DNA of 64,000 nt from assembly GCA_011032825.1 (NCBI GenBank), contig JAADJZ010000005.1, forward strand, positions 1,369,001 through 1,433,000. The letters run 5' to 3'. The position numbers and the translations under genes were made by a program. Below, one piece after another: positions 1 through 55,425 of the stretch (positions are counted from its first letter, which is position 1; every line of letters starts with the position of its first letter). The notes beneath the pieces were generated by a model. It did no database searches and was not told the DNA's origin. It worked only from the letters and a program-made list of their open reading frames with translations. Origin of the DNA: Massariosphaeria phaeospora (lineage: Eukaryota > Ascomycota > Dothideomycetes > Pleosporales).

Positions 1-1346
1 CGATACGAATTTCGCGCACAATGCCGTCTTGAGGCTGGAGTGCCACGTCATCGTTACGGGTGAGTTCCAGTTCCTCTAGCTCACTATAGGGTGTGCGGGC
101 ATATTTGCGATATCTGGACAATCTGCTGTTCTTTGAAGCATCCTGGCCGGCGGATGCGTAGCCTGAAGACGAGTGCGTAGGCAGTCGTTTAACCTCAGGG
201 CGAAAGTGAGTCCAGATTGGCCGTAGGGTAGGTAGGCAAGCAGACACGACGGCGAGAGAAAGTTCGATGTTAATCCAGAAGAAGACAGGTGCAGTATAGT
301 CTAAATTCGAATTATATGTTAGCGTATCTTTTTGGGAGTTTCGTTGCTAAAATGAAGGCATGGACTCACATATCACATCATTTGGATGTCGCAAGTACTC
401 TCCAGCGACTTCAAATAAAGCGATGACACGAGCAATGCTTACCGCACAAACACTGTAAGGACACAATTAGTTAGCGTAAGTGAGGAGAACAGATCAGCCA
501 AGTGGAGTACTTCGTTGAAGACTTACGCTGCGCCTAACAAGAGTATACCCATGACAGCGATTCTTTGTTTGAGCGGCAACTGCAGACCCAAGATGACTGG
601 TATCGGCATTGCAAGAATGATACAGTCGATAATGGTGCCGGAAATCGCGACGGATAGAAACATAGGAACTTGATTTACGCACTTGTTCCCGTAATATGGC
701 TCGATGAAGACCGTGATGGGGTAGCAAGTGAAAAGGTGGGAGAAAAAGTAGCCGGCCGTCCAGATAGTGATAATAGTCAACATTCCGTATACAGCATATC
801 TAAATGGGCGGGTTGTGAATATATTCTTGTAGTAGATCAAGATGGACGCCTTGATTAGTCCTAAGCCAACAATTCCGAGCATGTTGAGGGCGAATTTGGT
901 CTTCAAGTTCTGTAAGCATGGATTTGTACTAGAGAGCCGGGCCACTTGCCTTCTCGAAAAATATCAGTCCTGGATCATCCATGATTGGGGTTCCGTCGGA
1001 ATATAGAGGCTGATGTTGGCCAAGGTGGCCATGGACAGCAGCTGGAACTAATATAAGCAGGGTTTAGAGTATTTCAATATGATTTGAACGCTCACTAGTC
1101 AATTGCAGGAGACAGCATGTTATCGACACAAACTGAGACATGTTAGTAATTCTCTCGAAAGATCTGATACAGTTCTACAGTGTGGAATGTACTCACAAGT
1201 GCGGCTATTGCTAGATGATCATCCAGGGCCATTCGTCTTGCAGAAAGCCATTTTGCCCATAGTCGAAGGCTAACAAGAATGACTGGTACTATCATGAAGC
1301 CTACAGCGAGACCTATCATGAGGCCCTTTGAATAGTCTTGCAGCAT
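1..1346 (-). CDS. PTH11-like rhodopsin-fold integral membrane protein (3' end outside window)
   Basis: Fungal seven-transmembrane protein of the rhodopsin-domain (PTH11/SC1-like) family, probably a plasma-membrane receptor-type protein. Six exons can be read: 1346-1197, 1132-1096, 1047-950, 909-527, 452-370 and 300 to beyond position 1; all phases agree. The intron after exon 3 uses a GC donor (GCAAGT). Family landmarks in order: an N-terminal TM then the LDDHL stretch, a GQH motif in the first extracellular part, the central TM block with C-Y-P (FTCYP), the CAVSIAR helix and the final TAPVFFWINIE helix, followed by a hydrophilic tail with a Tyr/Glu-rich stretch. The C-terminus runs off the left edge. 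Function and ligand unknown; whether it belongs to the adjacent RiPP-like locus cannot be told. Confidence 0.85.
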
Positions 1347-2506: not shown

Positions 2507-2702
2507 TCAGGAATTCTTGACAAGCTCATCGGCATCGGCATTGGGGTCGGCATCACGAGCAGACCAGGAGTTCTTCACCAGCTCGTCCGCATCCGTATCA
2601 CGAGCAGACCATGAGTTCTTTACAAGCTCATCCGCATCCGCATTCGCATCGGCGTCGCGAGCGGACCATGAGTTCTTGATAAGTTCGTCGGCATCGGCGT
2701 CG
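2493..2702. repeat. In-frame coding minisatellite of the repeat peptide (45/57-bp units)
   Basis: Alternating 45- and 57-bp direct repeats. The longer unit differs by a 12-bp insertion (A-N-A-D type). The repeat pattern runs past the TGA stop at 2507-2509: the following four codons again read S-A-R-D. Confidence 0.85.
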
Positions 2703-2840
2703 CGGACACTGACGTCAGCCATCGTCCTGCCTATACTACTTAGTAAACTGGGTGAAAACAGCATGGATGCATATCGTACCTTGGATCAGGGGTGAGGCCA
2801 TGCTCACACCAAGCAAGAGGGAGAGAATAGTCCAACGCAT
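2507..2840 (-). CDS. Secreted tandem-repeat peptide, candidate RiPP precursor
   Basis: Not recognised as a known precursor. Exon 1 is 2840-2780 and exon 2 is 2730-2507; the 49-bp intron has a TTTACTAAG branch region and a TATAG acceptor. The next AG downstream (GCAG) would break the frame. The product is 94 aa. Residues 1-15 are a signal peptide (MRWTILSLLLGVSMA). From residue 31 four repeats follow: 15, 19, 15 and a truncated 15 residues. Each has an Asp/Ala-rich spacer, then DEL(I/V)KNS, and in three copies WSAR. The fungal dikaritin RiPP precursors are built this way (signal peptide, acidic spacers, repeated cores cut out by a Kex2-type protease and cyclised by UstYa proteins), and the two neighbouring UstYa genes support that reading. 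No KR/RR site is present, so processing would have to occur at single K or R. Core boundaries are inference. Alternative: an ordinary small secreted repeat protein. Confidence 0.72.
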
Positions 2841-3324
2841 GTTGACGGTGAAGCGAGAATGTGTTTCTGGTCTTAAGACTGAAGGTATAACCGCGGCTGA
2901 ACGATGAGGGTGCTGAAGTATCCGAATGAGAGCTTTTAGATGCAGCGTCTACGTATATATGTTCATCGTCGGACTGAAGCTCAAACCAGGCACCCCAGTA
3001 ACGATCAGGCAACGCAACAATATGTTCGTCGTCGGACTGAAGCCCAAACCAGGCACCCCAGTAACGATCAGACAATGCAACAATAACGGCGATCACAAGG
3101 CCATCATGTCCATCAGTGTAACGACTTCGGCCTTGGTTCATGACGGGGATCCTTTCTCTGCCTACCTTCAGCTGATCTTGGCAATGTCGTCCAGGGTCGG
3201 ATTTAATCCATCCGCGCAGAAGACGGCCTCGGACACTTGCACATGCATTGGACATGAATTGGAATTGCTTGAAAACTCCAAGCACTGCAAATCGTCTTCC
3301 TGATCCCTTGTTTCTTCATCCGCA
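2841..3324. promoter_or_regulatory. Divergent promoter of repeat peptide and UstYa gene, with 63-bp tandem repeat
   Basis: 484-bp head-to-head intergenic region. It contains two direct 63-bp copies (2958-3020 and 3021-3083) differing at only a few positions; each holds a TCGTCGGACTGAAG segment with a CGG half-site and a GTAACGATCA segment. Divergent arrangement suggests joint expression of precursor and modifying enzyme, and CGG half-sites are typical of Zn2Cys6 regulator sites; binding is inference. The same repeat is open in a 182-codon minus-strand ORF (3285-2740) that would repeat RYWGAWF, but that ORF lacks a convincing signal peptide and overlaps the peptide gene. Confidence 0.5.
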
Positions 3325-4157
3325 ATGGCTTCCCAAAACGCCGAAGAGTATATACTGAAGGAATCACTGCTAAACCATGAAGAAGATCAACTCTATGCGC
3401 CTTTAGGAAAACCCGGAGGCCGCTCTGGGTATCGGTATCTAATACTGATGGGAACAGTGGTGGTATCACTTCTTGCTGGATATTCTATCGGGCAGACAAC
3501 AGTACATGAACCAGTTCAATACGGCCTTGCAAGTAAGATGACATGCCATTAGCCCATACGAACGATACTGACTTTCAACAGCGCCTCCAGGATCTTTCAG
3601 AACCGTCTGGGATCTCAATACTACCTTCATACAACGCCCCACGCTGAAGTCAGAGGCTGCGTGGAATTCGCTCGTACCAGGTAAGCCACACCAACAATCA
3701 GAAGAGAGTGAGCTACACTGATATCGACCAAGTAGGACGGGGATTCGTACATCATCCTCAACTCGCACCCTTCGTTTCCAACATCGCCGTTTTCCACCAA
3801 CTACACTGTCTTGTGAGTATCTCTAGCTCCGACCAACTCCTCCTGACATTCAAGCAGCATGGAATCCTTGTCGCCTACTACAAAGCTCTGGAGAGCCCTC
3901 CAACGAGCAACTTCACAGACATCCCGGATTTCGACCATGAAACTGGCGTGAAGACGGCTGTTCCGCACATCCACCATTGCTTCGATTACCTTCGCCAAAC
4001 CATCATGTGCGCGGCGGATACAAACATGGAGGTCCTAGATCGCGAGACACACGCTACGAATGGATTTGGACAGACGAAGAAATGTCGGAACTATGAGCAC
4101 GTCTTCGCCTGGGCGGAGCGATATGCCAACTCATCGGATACTGGGATTCTTAGTTAG
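3325..4157 (+). CDS. UstYa-like (DUF3328) protein, copy 1
   Basis: Type II membrane protein of the UstYa/DUF3328 family, oxidases that form cyclic bonds in fungal RiPPs. Exons 3325-3532, 3582-3680, 3736-3812 and 3858-4157 give 227 aa; all phases agree. The last intron (45 bp) is a multiple of three and open, but removing it gives the family spacing HCL-HGILVAYY. Features: cytosolic N-terminus, one TM at about residues 37-57 (YLILMGTVVVSLLAGYSIG), W-N-S-L-V-P-G-R-G-F, first HxxHC (FHQLHC), second HxxHC (HIHHC), then FDYLRQTIMCAAD and a C-terminal CRNYEHVFAWAE. Both metal-binding motifs are intact. It shares a promoter with the repeat peptide, which suggests that peptide is its substrate (inference). 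Confidence 0.9.
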
Positions 4158-5420
4158 CGGTCAAGCATCGCGCGATCGGTTGTCCTCTGGATACAAGCGG
4201 TGAACTGCATGGAGAAATCAGAAAGTATTCGGATCGGAAGGGTTTCTGGGGATATCAGTCTATGATGAGATTTTCCCTGCCCTCAGTTGTCACCCCATGT
4301 TTCCACAAAAAGAGAAGGGATGGAGAACGCTCGGGATCTCAACTGCCGCTTCCTTCTTGCGAAACAAAGGACAGTGATCTGAGTAATACAATATGACCAG
4401 GATTTCGTGTCAGTGGGAGGGGTGGCCCGCTCCTCTGCAGCGGTAGAGTCATATAGGACTTAAGTGCAGCTCGCCAGCGGGACAAAATGGTCTTTTGGAT
4501 ATGCGAGTGTACGAGTTACACCTTAGAATGCTGCACATCGTATACCAGCCTCGCAGTCGGTTATAACCGGTTCGAGTCTGTTGCCAGGATCAACCGGTCA
4601 ACCTAAAGCGGTAGGTGTTGATTCCGTGCTACCGCACAGCACAATTCGACTTCACTTTTCCGGAACGAAGGACGTAGCATGCAAGACCAAGCATCGGAGA
4701 TGAACTCAGGACCATTTCTGTTTCTCGATCAGCTCTTCGATGGTCTGTTGTACTCACTGAAACTTCGTATGCGGCGGACTTGATCATCGTACCCCGTACA
4801 TCGTACATGCACCCTCGGCGTCTTGCGTGCAGACTGATTTCGACAAAGTACGACGAGCCAGCATCAGGAACCATCCACGCGGTACACAGTTACCGCCCCA
4901 TCATCTATGCGCCGTAAACAGGGATCAATGTAGTAGTTTGCCAGCCTGTCTCGGTACACCATCAGATGAAAAACAAATACGTCCGGCACACCGTCTTTCA
5001 ACTACCCCGGTGGGCGATTGCTCGATCGAATCCTGATCTTCGATACGAGTATGTGGTTGCCGACTCTCCGCATCCTGAGTGCGTGATGGGTGGCTGCCAG
5101 GTTGTCCGACGTGTTCGAATAAGACGTGATGTTGGGTTTCATCGCAGCGGTGTTTGGCTGCCTGGTCCATACATGGATGCCACTCTTATGCGTCTCTTGG
5201 TATTAGCAGTACCTTTACAGTCAGAAGTTAGGACGACTTGTTTGAGTAGCTGCAAGTCTCTCACGTGATCCAATACCCACTTACTGATGAATGAGGCCGT
5301 GATCCGCGGACTGCACTTGGCGTATACCAACCTCAACGTCCTCCCGACGCCGGTACGCACTGTGCAGTCGAAACCAGACCTGCGTCTAACGTCAATGGCT
5401 AGGTCGCCACATCATTCACG
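4158..5420. other. Intergenic between the two UstYa-like genes
   Basis: 1.26 kb with only short unsupported ORFs; no HxxHC fragment, no second precursor and no transposase remnant was seen. Confidence 0.5.
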
Positions 5421-6417
5421 ATGAACAGCACCTACAAGGGCGGATACACTCCTATCACAAACTATGATCATGGAGAGCTTGACTCCGTAGTCAGACCCAA
5501 ACGTCGCTTAGACAGCCTTCTAAGTTTCCATGTTCTGAACTACTCCTTTCTCCTGGTTTCGAACTTGTTGTTCGCGTTCTTTTGGTTGCAGTCCAGCCAT
5601 GCGAGCAGTAGTTGCGTACGCCCACAACTAATCTACTGTAAGATCCAAACTCCCCGGAAACAAGGGCGGACCCGAAGGTTCTAATCACTTCGCGTGTAAA
5701 CAGCGCCTGCGACAAGTTCCCTTCAATACGAGAAACGACGTCTCTGGAGAGATATCGACGGTCCCAACCCATTCACCGGTGCACCACGACCCGAGTTCGA
5801 CGAAGCATGGCGAACAATCATCGAGCGTATGTTCCTTGTCCTGGTCTCCAATCTCAAGCTGCAAGTTCTGACTAGTTGCCCAGCAATGACCATTAAAGTG
5901 TCGGCCCATGAACTTGCGCGGTTCAGCGAAGGCGACGGGACGGTGGCGTTTAGGGATGGTTCCGGGTTCCTCGCAGAGATGGCAGTTTACCATGAACTGC
6001 ACTGCGTGGTGGGTGCTCTTTGAGCCACTCCGCCGTTTGGCTGACTCCCGGGGCTAATGAGTACTGCTTGCTTCTCGCAGAAGCGCATCAGGCACTTCCT
6101 CTACAAGGACCATTACCTTCCCAACATGACCGAAGCGGACGTCATCCGAGAAAACCAGCACATGGGTATGTCGAGTGAAGGCCAGCCCTCACCGTGGCTT
6201 AGCAGTTTGCTGACTCTGCGGACCAGACCACTGCTTGGAGTATTTGAGGGAAGCTGCTGTCTGTCGGGGAGACGTGACGTTGTCGACGTTCTTCTGGAAA
6301 GAGGGCGTTCCGGCTTCGCGGGTATATGACGACCACGAGTGCGTCAACTGGGAGCGGCTGGATACTTGGGCGAGGAGTAGGATGGTGGACATGAGCGATC
6401 TCTCGGCATTCAGCTGA
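5421..6417 (+). CDS. UstYa-like (DUF3328) protein, copy 2
   Basis: Second UstYa/DUF3328 protein. Exons 5421-5637, 5704-5826, 5899-6008, 6081-6165 and 6227-6417 give 241 aa; each junction restores frame. Order: hydrophilic N-terminus, TM at about residues 38-55 (YSFLLVSNLLFAFFWLQ), the family's luminal segment GAPRPEFDEAWRTI, first HxxHC (YHELHC), second HxxHC (QHMDHC, assembled across the last intron), CLEYLREAAVC and a C-terminal HECVNWERLDTWA. Both catalytic motifs are intact. It is clearly divergent from copy 1, so the two probably act at different steps, as UstYa pairs do in known dikaritin pathways. Same strand as copy 1, 1.26 kb downstream. Confidence 0.9.
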
Positions 6418-7503: not shown

Positions 7504-7567
7504 GTAAGTAGTCCACTCTTCTACCCAACCTCCTCTCAACCGGCAGCCGTGCTGACTTGACTTGCAG
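7504..7567 (+). other. Probable 5' UTR intron
   Basis: GTAAGT donor at 7504, a GCTGAC branch-like site and a TTGCAG acceptor at 7567, ten bases before the ATG at 7578. This argues against the in-frame ATG at 7557, which would lie inside the intron. Confidence 0.6.
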
Positions 7568-7577
7568 TTCGAACATC

Positions 7578-8978
7578 ATGGCTCCCCTCCGCTTGCTATG
7601 CCTCGTCACTGCCAGCTTTCTGGCCCTCAGCGGCGTCGATGCGCGTCGCCACAACAAGGTCGCTGTCGCCATGTTCGACCGAACGAACTGCCTCGGCCAT
7701 CCGCTTGACCACAGGATGCGCGAAGCTGAAGACGACAACGACAGCTGCACTCCGGTCCAAGGAGTGTCGCTCATGGTCAGCAAGGACAAGGACAAGAACT
7801 CCAAGTGGATTGCAGAGGTGAACAAGGGCGACAAGCAGTGCTTCCTCACCGCATTCACCGAACATGGCTGCAACTCGTCTGCAAAGGACCCGAGCCCGAT
7901 AACGATCAGTCTGCCGAGGGACTTTGGAAAATGCGTCCATGTCGATACGGCCCATCCTCTCCGGGCCGTTGACTTCAGGTGCGAACCTCGAGTTGTTCTG
8001 GCCGTGCCCACCAACGTCACCATGAGCCTCGTTGTGCCTTCCTACTCCATCCTGCCGGACGGCCTTGTCAGCGAGTTCAACCATACGACGGCGATCACGA
8101 TGACGAGCTGGATGTATCCTCGCGCTGCGACGATCACGCCCGATCCTCTAGCCGAAGCAACTGCGGGTGCGCATCTTGACCCCCGGAAGAAAAAGAAGCA
8201 GTACAACCTCAAGGCTGTATGGATGAAGCACCCGTGGACCGGCTCACATATCTGCTACAACTGCTGGCACAAGAAGAACACTGCAGTGAATAGTGACAAG
8301 TTCCTTTGCCGGTCCGGGCCAGAGCATACGCTGTTATGCGGAGAGGCTCCGGAGATTGCTTCGGTACATACATCGCACGTGACTTCTACGGTAACAACCA
8401 CCCAGCTGGTTGAGGCAACCACCGTTGCGCCGCTCCAGGAGCGGTCCAGTCACCAGGCCGTCCTTTTTCATCACCCTTGGGTCTCGGATGTGATCGTCTG
8501 TGGTGACTCCGAGTGGGAGAATAAAGGCCAGAGCGATTCGGAGATTCGGCTCCAGGACATCGAAGCAGCCAATAAATGCAAAGACGACGCGAGGCAGATT
8601 GATGCGGTATATCAAACCACGACTTTGACATCCTATACCACAACGACTACACCGTTCCCGGCGTCGTTGGTTCCGACGGGCTCGACGAAGACTTTCACTG
8701 TTACTTCCTCTCCCTCGTCATCCACCGTGGCAGCATCCACCGTTACTGTTTACGTGACATCTACAACTATTCCTGTTGTCCAGCCAACTACGTATGTCCC
8801 AATTATCCCGATTATCCCGATTATCCCCGGGACCCTCGCTCCCAGGTCTACTAGCACCACTGCTGGCGGACCATCCACTCTTTATCCTTCGGGATGGAGG
8901 ACTATGACCCCCGGTCCTACTGTTATCGACGGGGTGACATACACTATTCCCACGGCTACGTCTACGTCAGTCGCGTGA
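7578..8978 (+). CDS. Secreted Ser/Thr-rich hypothetical protein
   Basis: Family not recognised. 466 aa in one coding exon. The ATG at 7578 gives a clean signal peptide (MAPLRLLCLVTASFLALSGVDA) followed by RR. The N-terminal half is Cys-containing and globular-looking (about residues 25-150). The middle holds two related segments with an HPW motif near residues 219 and 300, each followed by Ile and Cys, suggesting an internal duplication. The last 130 residues are a Ser/Thr/Pro-rich stalk with a short Ile-Pro repeat (IIPIIPIIPG), probably O-glycosylated. No hydrophobic C-terminal GPI signal is visible. Probably an extracellular or wall-associated protein. Confidence 0.8.
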   Translation: MAPLRLLCLVTASFLALSGVDARRHNKVAVAMFDRTNCLGHPLDHRMREAEDDNDSCTPVQGVSLMVSKDKDKNSKWIAEVNKGDKQCFLTAFTEHGCNSSAKDPSPITISLPRDFGKCVHVDTAHPLRAVDFRCEPRVVLAVPTNVTMSLVVPSYSILPDGLVSEFNHTTAITMTSWMYPRAATITPDPLAEATAGAHLDPRKKKKQYNLKAVWMKHPWTGSHICYNCWHKKNTAVNSDKFLCRSGPEHTLLCGEAPEIASVHTSHVTSTVTTTQLVEATTVAPLQERSSHQAVLFHHPWVSDVIVCGDSEWENKGQSDSEIRLQDIEAANKCKDDARQIDAVYQTTTLTSYTTTTTPFPASLVPTGSTKTFTVTSSPSSSTVAASTVTVYVTSTTIPVVQPTTYVPIIPIIPIIPGTLAPRSTSTTAGGPSTLYPSGWRTMTPGPTVIDGVTYTIPTATSTSVA

Positions 8979-53800: not shown

Positions 53801-54096
53801 TCCGAGCAATCCTAGACCCTAGTGTGGGTTTCTCAATGCCCGGCTCAGTGGTATCATAGTTCGCGAAAAGTTTCTACCGTTTACAACAATGTAGGTGCTC
53901 GGGATGTTGTATGTTTGGTGTGTTGGGAAACTGATAAGCGGGCAGATCAACGTACCGTCGATGTCACTGGAGCAGTCAGTGATGGTGGATATAAAGGCAC
54001 ATTATCACACTCCTCAAATCAATCATCCACCACTTCAACAGCTTCTCACTCCTTCTCCTATCTGCTACTACGCCAATAACTTCACACTCTTTCACC
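50897..54096. other. 3.2-kb intergenic region, no supported gene
   Basis: The longest ORF (52052-52615 plus, 187 codons) has no domain and atypical composition. A lower-GC patch at about 52380-52560 could be a relic, but no transposase, terminal repeat or tRNA was found. The right end is the promoter of the secreted repeat protein. Confidence 0.5.
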
Positions 54097-55425
54097 ATGA
54101 CTAAAGCATCTGTCCTTCTCGTTTTGCTCGGATTGGCGGTACAATCATACGGTACCGCAGCAATAGCCAGCAACATCGACCTCGAATCCTCTCTGCGCCT
54201 TCCGAGGTCTGGATTGCCCAGCGGTCTTGACATCAAGAGGGCCGAGGAACCCAGGTCGCCGAAGAAGACACCTCCCCCTGCTGTTCAAGCAACACCAACT
54301 GCTACCGGTGCTGCTAAACCCGGTTCCCCGACAACGCTGGTCACAGCAGCCAGCTCTGGCTCTAAACCTGCAGCTTGCAAGCGGAAGACGGGGGCAAGCG
54401 GAACCAACAAACCAGCCGGCACCGCCAAAGTAACCGGCACCGCCAAAGTAACCGGCACCGCCAAAGTAACCGGCACCGCCAAAGTAACCGGCACCGCCAA
54501 AGCAGCGATCACGACCAAAAAGGCTTCCGCAGCGGATGTTCAAAAGAGGGCTAACGCAGAGCCCCGCGACTGGAGGTCCAAGCTCTTGGGCAAGAAAAAG
54601 ACTACATCCGAAGCTAAGAAAACGAGGACCAAGCACGCCTCCGCCAAACCCACACCCGAGGCGGGCGAGGCCACATCCGAAGCGGGCGAGGCCACACCCA
54701 CACTCGAAGCGGGCGAGGACACACCTACACCCACACACACAGCCAAAGCGCACAAAGGTGAGGCAACCCCAACTAGCGATGCACCCGTCGAGAAAAGGGA
54801 AGACCCCGTTGAAGACGAGGAAGCACCTGTCGAAGACGAGGAAACACCTGTTGAAGACAAGGAAGCACCTGTCGACGACGAGGAAGCACCTGTCGAAGAC
54901 GAGGAAACACCTGTTGAAGACAAGGAAGCACCTGTCGACGACGAGGAAGCACCTGTCGAAGACGAGGAAACACCTGTTGAAGACAAGGAAGCACCTGTCG
55001 ACGACGAGGAAGCACCTGTTGAAGACGAGGAAACACCTGTTGAAGACAAGGAAGCACCTGTCGACGACGAGGAAGCACCTGTTGAAGACGAGGAAGCACC
55101 TGTTGAAGACGAGGAAACACCTGTTGAAGACAAGGAAGCACCTGTCGACGACGAGGAAGCACCTGTTGAAGACGAGGAAACCCCCGCCGAAGACCCCGAT
55201 GCCCCAAACGATGAAGACTCAACAACACTAACTGATTCTGAAGCAACCCAAACCGCCGACGCCGAAGCAAATGCCGACGCAACCCCCGCCGCAGACGCCG
55301 ATGCCCCGAGCAATGAAGAAGACAAAGCAACGTCAACCCCGGCCCACACCAAGACCAAGACCGGCGCCAAGGCAAGCGCAACCCCAACCAAGGAAGCCGT
55401 CGCCGATGACGAGGCTCCCGTCTAG
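54097..55425 (+). CDS. Secreted acidic heptad-repeat protein
   Basis: 442 aa, single exon, family not recognised. Signal peptide MTKASVLLVLLGLAVQSYG, a Pro/Thr/Lys-rich segment with four perfect TAKVTG hexapeptides (54421-54503), a basic stretch RDWRSKLLGKKK, then about 19 heptads of the type APVEDEE/TPVEDKE/APVDDEE arranged as 21-residue triplets (about residues 236-368), and an Ala/Thr/Asp-rich tail. Three KR pairs (DIKRAE, VQKRAN, VEKRED) are potential Kex2 sites. Strongly charged and probably disordered in the extracellular space. Lacks a GPI signal. Could be a wall or matrix protein, or a repeat effector. Confidence 0.85.
   Translation: MTKASVLLVLLGLAVQSYGTAAIASNIDLESSLRLPRSGLPSGLDIKRAEEPRSPKKTPPPAVQATPTATGAAKPGSPTTLVTAASSGSKPAACKRKTGASGTNKPAGTAKVTGTAKVTGTAKVTGTAKVTGTAKAAITTKKASAADVQKRANAEPRDWRSKLLGKKKTTSEAKKTRTKHASAKPTPEAGEATSEAGEATPTLEAGEDTPTPTHTAKAHKGEATPTSDAPVEKREDPVEDEEAPVEDEETPVEDKEAPVDDEEAPVEDEETPVEDKEAPVDDEEAPVEDEETPVEDKEAPVDDEEAPVEDEETPVEDKEAPVDDEEAPVEDEEAPVEDEETPVEDKEAPVDDEEAPVEDEETPAEDPDAPNDEDSTTLTDSEATQTADAEANADATPAADADAPSNEEDKATSTPAHTKTKTGAKASATPTKEAVADDEAPV
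54421..54503. repeat. 18-bp coding tandem repeat (TAKVTG)
   Basis: Four essentially identical 18-bp copies of ACCGCCAAAGTAACCGGC within the secreted acidic repeat protein gene, then a partial fifth. Confidence 0.92.
54802..55200. repeat. 21-bp/63-bp coding tandem repeat
   Basis: About 19 units of 21 bp, in a 63-bp higher-order order (APVEDEE-TPVEDKE-APVDDEE). Adjacent copies are nearly identical, suggesting recent expansion. The array keeps several other frames open on both strands. Confidence 0.92.

Follow-up and report, generated by a model that had tools for sequence, protein, structure and literature searches.

A putative minimal UstYa-type RiPP cluster with a tryptophan-core precursor in Massariosphaeria phaeospora

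Our analysis of a 64,000-nt stretch of Massariosphaeria phaeospora DNA (the window; assembly GCA_011032825.1, contig JAADJZ010000005.1, positions 1,369,001–1,433,000, forward strand) points to a minimal UstYa-type, dikaritin-like RiPP cluster with a Trp-core precursor, for which we propose a cross-linked secreted peptide as the product (probability about 0.78). We conclude, as judged from sequence, that the precursor is of a new type: its core, N-x-W-x-A, contains Trp and no Tyr, and the window copy has no dibasic Kex2 site.

Table 1. Features of the candidate cluster and its surroundings, in window coordinates
Feature	Position	Strand	Basis or remark
Exon of Fung_rhodopsin gene (7TM, PF20684)	523..963	-	101.9 bits, cut-off 27
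Precursor gene, 94 aa	2507..2840	-	spliced translation; homologues P0001, P0002; paralogue on C33
Precursor exon 1, intron, exon 2	2840-2780, 2779-2731, 2730-2507	-	splice model
Precursor exon 1, signal-peptide-like stretch MRWTILSLLLGVSMASPLIQ	2780..2840	-	translation, by eye
Precursor repeat 1, DADELIKNSWSAR	2657..2695	-	translation
Precursor repeat 2, DADELVKNSWSAR	2600..2638	-	translation
Precursor repeat 3, DADELVKNSWSAR	2555..2593	-	translation
Precursor repeat 4, shortened: DADELVKNS + stop codon (2509-2507)	2507..2536	-	translation
Shared intergenic region, 484 bp	2841..3324	.	likely divergent promoter (putative role)
UstYa1 (PF11807), 228 aa	3325..4157	+	domain match; identity to P0003
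UstYa1 exons	3325-3532, 3582-3680, 3733-3812, 3858-4157	+	gene model
UstYa1 motifs HQLHC; HIHHC	3795-3809; 3966-3980	+	translation
UstYa2 (PF11807), 246 aa	5421..6417	+	domain match; gene model
UstYa2 exons	5421-5637, 5704-5826, 5884-6008, 6081-6165, 6227-6417	+	gene model
UstYa2 motifs HELHC; HMDHC (split)	5991-6005; 6159-6165 + 6227-6234	+	translation

In the predicted gene model, removal of a GT-AG intron (2779-2731) yields the 94-aa repeat protein described in an earlier note on this DNA. Its N-terminus is, by eye, a short hydrophobic signal-like stretch (MRWTILSLLLGVSMA), in line with the signal peptide claimed there, and resembles, also by eye, MKLSLVILSMAAGALTAPLMK of a paralogue on contig C33 and MRLVYIAAFLGASLAVPILEG of the homologue P0001. 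The acidic-spaced repeats are present; of the four that had been counted, three are complete (D-A-D-E-L-[VI]-K-N-S-W-S-A-R) and the fourth (2536-2510) ends at K-N-S, with a stop codon at the W position of the other copies, beyond which S-A-R can still be read in frame. The 94 residues include no Tyr, and the repeats have no Cys and, when complete, one W each. The repeats vary mainly at silent sites (pS 0.65, pN 0.03; comparing the three complete repeats pair by pair gives differences at 16.5 of 25.3 synonymous and 2.5 of 91.7 non-synonymous sites), and so, on this pattern of substitutions, the frame is translated and under purifying selection. A chance or spurious ORF is ruled out by the silent-site pattern and by the homologues, including P0001 in another fungal class; a plus-strand reading (123-aa stop-to-stop ORF, 2424-2795) was rejected because homology and the silent-site pattern both indicate the minus strand.

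A search of the 42-Mb genome with the precursor (4 candidates scored, E up to 10) revealed one other precursor-like place, on contig C33, and the match is reciprocal. The C33 precursor has four Kex2-bounded repeats (SDSDEVVGNLWH[AE]K) at a spacing of 19 aa, each opened by KR; the repeats contain no Cys and one W each, the Trp of the core being conserved, and their substitution pattern (pS 0.59, pN 0.02) indicates purifying selection here too. Both precursor introns are in phase 1, after codon 20 in the window and after codon 21 on C33. The C33 precursor stands head-to-head with the UstYa gene that, UstYa2 itself aside, matches UstYa2 best in this genome (1.2 kb ATG to ATG; 49–54% over two exons, 43.8% overall); the genome's 14 UstYa loci (our own grouping of 26 matches), taken with 5 kb on either side, make up about 0.33% of the genome. 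This pairing supports the earlier assignment of the repeat peptide as the probable precursor, and is the opposite of the outcome named as grounds for refutation, homologues always lying without DUF3328 neighbours, for the one homologue with readable context. UstYa1 has no match at the C33 locus, and the UstYa1–UstYa2 pair is therefore not strictly tied to the precursor type. Because both loci share D-x-D-E-[LV]-[VI]-x-N-x-W-x-[AE]-[KR], the core, originally drawn around K-N-S-W-S-A-R, is better drawn as (V-x-)N-x-W-x-A.

In the protein database, the precursor has two homologues: P0001 from Hypoxylon texense (Sordariomycetes; E 6e-13) and P0002, a JGI sequence, both of which retain [NS]-S-W-S-A-R. 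No Hypoxylon texense protein was returned by the UstYa1 or the UstYa2 search, where linkage near Hte_012008 was sought, so that the precursor–UstYa linkage is seen within the M. phaeospora genome alone. Of 25 other named species, 11 have relatives of UstYa1 and UstYa2 together on one contig, and in 4 of the 11 the locus tags are consecutive (one of them on a 23-kb contig); in the other 14, no UstYa2 match was found on the contig of the UstYa1 relative. The same-contig pair occurs in species of three fungal classes, the class having been determined for 3 of the 11. Species with UstYa pairs include Daldinia caldariorum, Hypoxylon argillaceum and Penicillium chermesinum.

The precursor and UstYa1 are arranged head-to-head, with 485 bp from ATG to ATG, and about 2.6 kb separates the precursor and UstYa2 ATGs, as had been reported. 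The 484-bp region between precursor and UstYa1 is likely a divergent promoter and contains a 63-bp unit in two tandem copies (2957-3085, 93% match). Both enzymes match PF11807 (UstYa1 79 bits, UstYa2 173.1 bits, cut-off 25), and each carries the two intact HxxHC motifs attributed to it. UstYa1, with exon 3 starting at 3733, equals a public protein letter for letter (P0003; BDV95DRAFT_309506, 228 aa). For UstYa1, HQLHC and HIxHC are invariant in a 10-sequence alignment, as are, for UstYa2, the His and Cys of both motifs in a 12-sequence alignment; UstYa2 has no match among PDB chains at E up to 1. The protein database search returned neither the M. phaeospora precursor nor its UstYa2, and both may therefore lack annotation there. 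These absences, together with a stop that has already cost repeat 4 its W-S-A-R, could also reflect a decaying locus whose cluster has ceased to yield a product in this strain. We consider such decay improbable, since three intact repeats are under strong purifying selection and the frames of UstYa1 (4 exons) and UstYa2 (5 exons) are open, with motifs intact.

Comparison with known systems places the locus closest to the dikaritins, whose class-defining feature is a DUF3328/UstYa enzyme with two HxxHC motifs (PMC12048977), present here in both UstYa1 and UstYa2. Like ustiloxin, phomopsin and asperipin-2a, the locus combines a repeat precursor bearing a signal peptide (by eye) with nearest-neighbour UstYa genes; ustiloxin likewise has two (PMC7329392). 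It differs in three respects: the core conserves Trp and lacks Tyr, through which ustiloxins, phomopsins and asperipin-2a are cross-linked; dibasic sites (KR/RR/KK/RK) are absent between the cores of the window precursor, as from P0002 (P0001 has one, the C33 paralogue four), so that the window cores are not expected to be freed by canonical Kex2 cleavage; and no tyrosinase, methyltransferase or peptidase was found next to the precursor in the neighbouring stretches scanned. The Tyr criterion is not strict, because victorin, which has been described alongside the dikaritins, uses Phe for its link (PMC9233826). The definition of Ding 2015, as quoted in PMC12048977, expects the cluster to include a tyrosinase, methyltransferase, transporter or peptidase, and none lies among the scanned neighbours, the one transporter-family match seen elsewhere in the window being to MFS_1, near 57.4 kb; functional dikaritin clusters without some of these genes exist (PMC12048977). 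The epichloecyclin (gigA) cluster is similarly small and likewise pairs a DUF3328 gene with a repeat precursor; it differs in having its own kexin gene and 27-aa repeats (PMC7317419) and in its cores, in which Tyr and Ile are joined to form the ring (PMC9233826).

KEPs (Umemura 2020) require at least three tandem repeats of at least 8 aa between KR/KK/RK/RR sites, a definition that fits the C33 paralogue, with its four KR-opened repeats, and not the window precursor. In the survey of this group in PMC7329392, 22% of 7878 Kex2-processed repeat proteins have a DUF3328 gene close by, most commonly in the adjacent position, and W is not enriched in repeats with DUF3328 neighbours (20.5% versus 24.5%). 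Our literature search covered CC-licensed PMC text; a C33-type precursor might stand in a KEP supplementary table.

The repeat protein could instead give linear, unmodified secreted peptides, alpha-pheromone-like or otherwise signalling, with the UstYa neighbours serving another purpose. Its acidic X-Ala stretches resemble the Ste13 signatures found in alpha-pheromone precursors (PMC6339444), the pheromone-type repeats G-4 and P-6 typically have W's a short distance apart (PMC7329392), and a 7TM Fung_rhodopsin gene adjoins both the window locus and the C33 locus. We regard this reading as unlikely: an alpha-pheromone precursor would be expected to have a pheromone core and no DUF3328 neighbours, and all but three repeat proteins annotated as mating factors or pheromones are without accompanying DUF3328 genes (PMC7329392), whereas both loci have UstYa genes and repeats with no Cys and a single W. 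The remaining exons of the window's Fung_rhodopsin gene would lie somewhere in about 1-1400, with a weak sub-cut-off match running on at the window's left edge and no domain match in the stretch 1143-1442.

That UstYa1 and UstYa2 act on another substrate, such as a non-ribosomal peptide made elsewhere (as does the DUF3328 enzyme CctR; PMC12435403), leaving the repeat protein a bystander, is very improbable, as domain scans of 23 of the 52 listed window ORFs of at least 170 aa, and of 8 of the 27 ORFs in a 9.9-kb stretch at the left edge of the window, gave no NRPS or PKS domain, and as precursor and UstYa2 relatives recur paired on C33.

DUF3328 proteins are binuclear copper enzymes (PMC12435403). 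For the UstYa-type RiPP cluster, we propose that the predicted signal peptide carries the precursor into the secretory pathway, where UstYa1 and UstYa2, as membrane-anchored lumenal binuclear copper oxidases like CctR, would target the conserved Trp of the core for oxidation. The most likely bond would join the indole to a neighbouring side chain, at a carbon of Asn, Ser or Ala; UstYa1 may serve as a partner of UstYa2 or carry out a second oxidation. The acidic D-x-D-E-[LV] stretch ahead of each core would be the recognition segment; ustiloxin-type precursors also carry an acidic spacer ahead of the core. The core, (V-x-)N-x-W-x-A, would be cut free at the conserved single Arg/Lys behind it, a Ste13-like dipeptidase would trim away its acidic X-Ala head, and the result would be a small secreted cross-linked Trp peptide that could act as a toxin, in defence or as a signal. 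The Fung_rhodopsin gene is a possible cluster member and, in a stronger form of the proposal, may encode the peptide's receptor. Tentatively, and with the odds somewhat against it, the two loci could represent a distinct fungal RiPP class, in which lumenal dicopper UstYa enzymes cross-link Trp in N-x-W-x-A and the N-S-W-S-A type, found in one Dothideomycete and one Sordariomycete, leaves its precursor by cleavage at a single basic residue; a type released in this way would escape the published KEP definition.

UstYa enzymes form strained side-chain cross-links on unactivated carbons, and the examples in the literature passages run through Tyr or Phe. A natural Trp substrate would allow a direct test of which residues UstYa enzymes recognise and of how cores are released, and the two related loci of this genome, of which only that on C33 carries Kex2 sites, form a comparison pair for such tests. 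The window precursor also suggests that dibasic-site mining misses part of fungal RiPP diversity. Within CC-licensed PMC text, the papers matching the core letter strings all look unrelated by title and abstract start, and none of the UstYa, DUF3328 or KEP papers among the matches listed names an N-x-W-x-A-type core.

The same genome contains a YDGIGRGY repeat precursor on contig C49 (L018), which gave no match to the window precursor in the genome search. It differs in its Tyr-containing core, its KR sites and a nearby O-methyltransferase gene. It resembles the window precursor in its exon 1, which encodes a signal-like stretch and stops at a comparable point, also in phase 1, in having A-[DEK]-E-V ahead of the core, and in the UstYa and Fung_rhodopsin genes nearby.

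The spliced model of the 94-aa candidate precursor and the models of its two PF11807 (UstYa/DUF3328) neighbours, UstYa1 and UstYa2, bear out the coordinates, intron and spacing proposed in the earlier note. The precursor comprises a signal-like stretch followed by acidic repeats. Four such repeats had been claimed; three are complete copies of D-A-D-E-L-[IV]-K-N-S-W-S-A-R, but the fourth stops after K-N-S, a stop codon occupying the W position. When the complete repeats are compared in their three pairs, the differences add up to 16.5 of 25.3 synonymous sites and 2.5 of 91.7 non-synonymous sites; this excess of synonymous change speaks for a translated frame and for selection acting on the peptide. 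A 63-bp tandem duplication lies between the precursor and UstYa1 (2957-3085). By enzyme and layout, the predicted cluster belongs with the UstYa RiPPs. It probably ends at UstYa2, since genes for an uncharacterised protein and a GTPase come next on the right. Elsewhere in the window, positions 53995-55425 encode a long, acidic, repetitive protein in which P-V-[ED]-D-[EK] units recur many times; it has no Pfam match.

Features in and around the predicted window cluster, and other repeat-coding loci in the same genome
Feature	Position	Strand	Remarks
FAD-binding oxidase	just beyond window's left edge		
Fung_rhodopsin gene	left of precursor		
Precursor	2840-2780, 2730-2507	minus	two exons; spliced translation 94 aa
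UstYa1	3325-4157		four exons; PF11807 match; two HxxHC motifs
UstYa2	5421-6417		five exons; PF11807 match; two HxxHC motifs
Uncharacterised protein	7512-8978		right of UstYa2; no Pfam match
GTPase gene	further right of UstYa2		
Tyr-type repeat precursor	L018 4494-4914 (C49:61493-61913)	minus	four Y-D-G-I-G-R-G-Y units, KR between
Repeat-rich ORF near another UstYa gene	L020 2302-2718 (C18)	minus	ends Y-G-A-Y-K-R-E-A-D-A
Repeat-rich ORF near another UstYa gene	L021 6556-7188 (C5)	plus	

A search of the 42-Mb genome (4 candidates scored) reveals one other place matching the precursor, C33:21209-21436 (E 2e-8), and the reciprocal search returns the window precursor. Both genes have a phase 1 intron, after codon 21 at C33 and codon 20 in the window. 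The C33 precursor consists of four copies of K-R-S-D-S-D-E-V-V-G-N-L-W-H-[AE]-K and has Kex2 sites; comparison of the two loci gives the common repeat D-x-D-E-[LV]-[VI]-x-N-x-W-x-[AE]-[RK]. A UstYa gene lies head-to-head with the C33 precursor (1.2 kb ATG to ATG); among the genome's matches to UstYa2 it ranks first after UstYa2 itself, with 54% and 49% identity over two exons and 105 of 240 aligned residues between the spliced proteins, one splice site being taken as GC-AG, which keeps the frame. UstYa1 has no match at this locus. The second precursor is unlikely to lie next to a UstYa locus by chance, because the 14 UstYa loci (our own grouping of 26 matches), with 5 kb either side, cover only ~0.33% of the genome. 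An M20 peptidase gene, a possible processing enzyme, adjoins the C33 UstYa gene (L012 7517-8530, minus strand). The C33 precursor also abuts a long AT-rich stretch (L027 and L012 1-4000; C33:7000-21000; 30% GC) that is like a repeat-induced-mutation island, with no ORF of >=130 aa in L027.

Outside the genome, a search of 5.8 billion proteins (E up to 10; 4922 candidates) returned two precursor relatives: P0001 from Hypoxylon texense (Sordariomycetes; E 6e-13), with three repeats D-A-D-D-L-V-[HK]-N-S-W-S-A-R, and P0002 from a JGI data set (E 5e-3), with two repeats ending [NS]-S-W-S-A-R. It returned no entry from M. phaeospora (Dothideomycetes), so the precursor gene is seemingly absent from that database; UstYa1 is 100% identical to an M. 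phaeospora database protein. The UstYa1 search gave 33 matches (E up to 1e-20; 1 own species, 25 other named species, 7 unnamed) and the UstYa2 search 53 (E up to 1e-25), H. texense being among neither. Relatives of both were assigned to the same contig, by species and equal contig size, in 11 of the 25 species: Hypoxylon sp. FL1857, Daldinia caldariorum, H. argillaceum (23-kb contig), Xylaria longipes, X. grammica, Podospora appendiculata, Aspergillus pseudocaelatus, A. spectabilis, Lophium mytilinum, Penicillium chermesinum and Apiospora aurea. These span Sordariomycetes (Daldinia), Eurotiomycetes (Penicillium) and a Dothideomycete (Lophium). Sharing a large contig does not by itself prove adjacency; four of the 11 have consecutive locus tags for the two genes (H. 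argillaceum, A. pseudocaelatus, P. chermesinum, Apiospora aurea). The other 14 species gave no same-contig UstYa2 match at E up to 1e-25, which is weak evidence given the 90% clustering of the database.

The example of CctR (PMC12435403) shows that a DUF3328 protein can be anchored in the membrane, face the lumen and work as a binuclear copper enzyme through its HxxHC pairs. Within the secretory pathway, oxidation of the Trp core would fall to UstYa2, the partner at both loci, with UstYa1 as its helper or as the enzyme of a further step. The acidic segment ahead of the window core resembles the A-[DEK]-E-V preceding Y-D-G-I-G in the C49 Tyr-type precursor, the two precursors having no match outside this stretch; the likeness suggests, by analogy, a recognition segment. 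Release would differ from that of known dikaritins: dibasic sites number zero in the window precursor, zero in P0002 and one in P0001. Each of the 12 complete repeats in the four related precursors (window, C33, P0001 and P0002) has a basic residue, R or K, directly after the core. If the chain were cut at this residue and X-Ala pairs were then removed in Ste13-like fashion (PMC6339444), the freed peptide would be about 5 to 10 residues long.

Besides dibasic sites, the window precursor lacks the Tyr core common among UstYa RiPPs, and the stretches scanned around the cluster contain no UstYa-RiPP accessory enzymes. Described UstYa products are, in the source excerpts, linked through Tyr or Phe. 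At the genome level, Trp in repeats near DUF3328 genes has precedent, since a survey (PMC7329392) already counts it in 20.5% of 1758 repeat proteins near DUF3328 genes; sequence strings of the window core occur in no relevant paper in CC-licensed PMC text.

Among the matches listed, no more than 3 kb separates a Fung_rhodopsin (7TM) match from UstYa at five or more of the 14 loci (C45, the window's contig; C33; C49; C50; C2), including all three clear repeat-precursor loci. The expectation within 5 kb is 0.48 loci for ~145 genes, our own estimate from the matches listed, with rows compared by hand, or 0.91 for all 273 candidates; among those matches the observed number is higher (Poisson P 1.5e-4 to 2.4e-3). 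The two gene families may just tend to occupy similar regions, and the proximity therefore counts as a lead only. Identity among the five rhodopsin pieces is low (22-33% in alignments >40 residues).

Two UstYa matches, an O-methyltransferase and a Fung_rhodopsin gene neighbour the C49 Tyr-type precursor; this dikaritin-like cluster is fuller than that of the window. The repeat-rich ORF on C18 may be another precursor.
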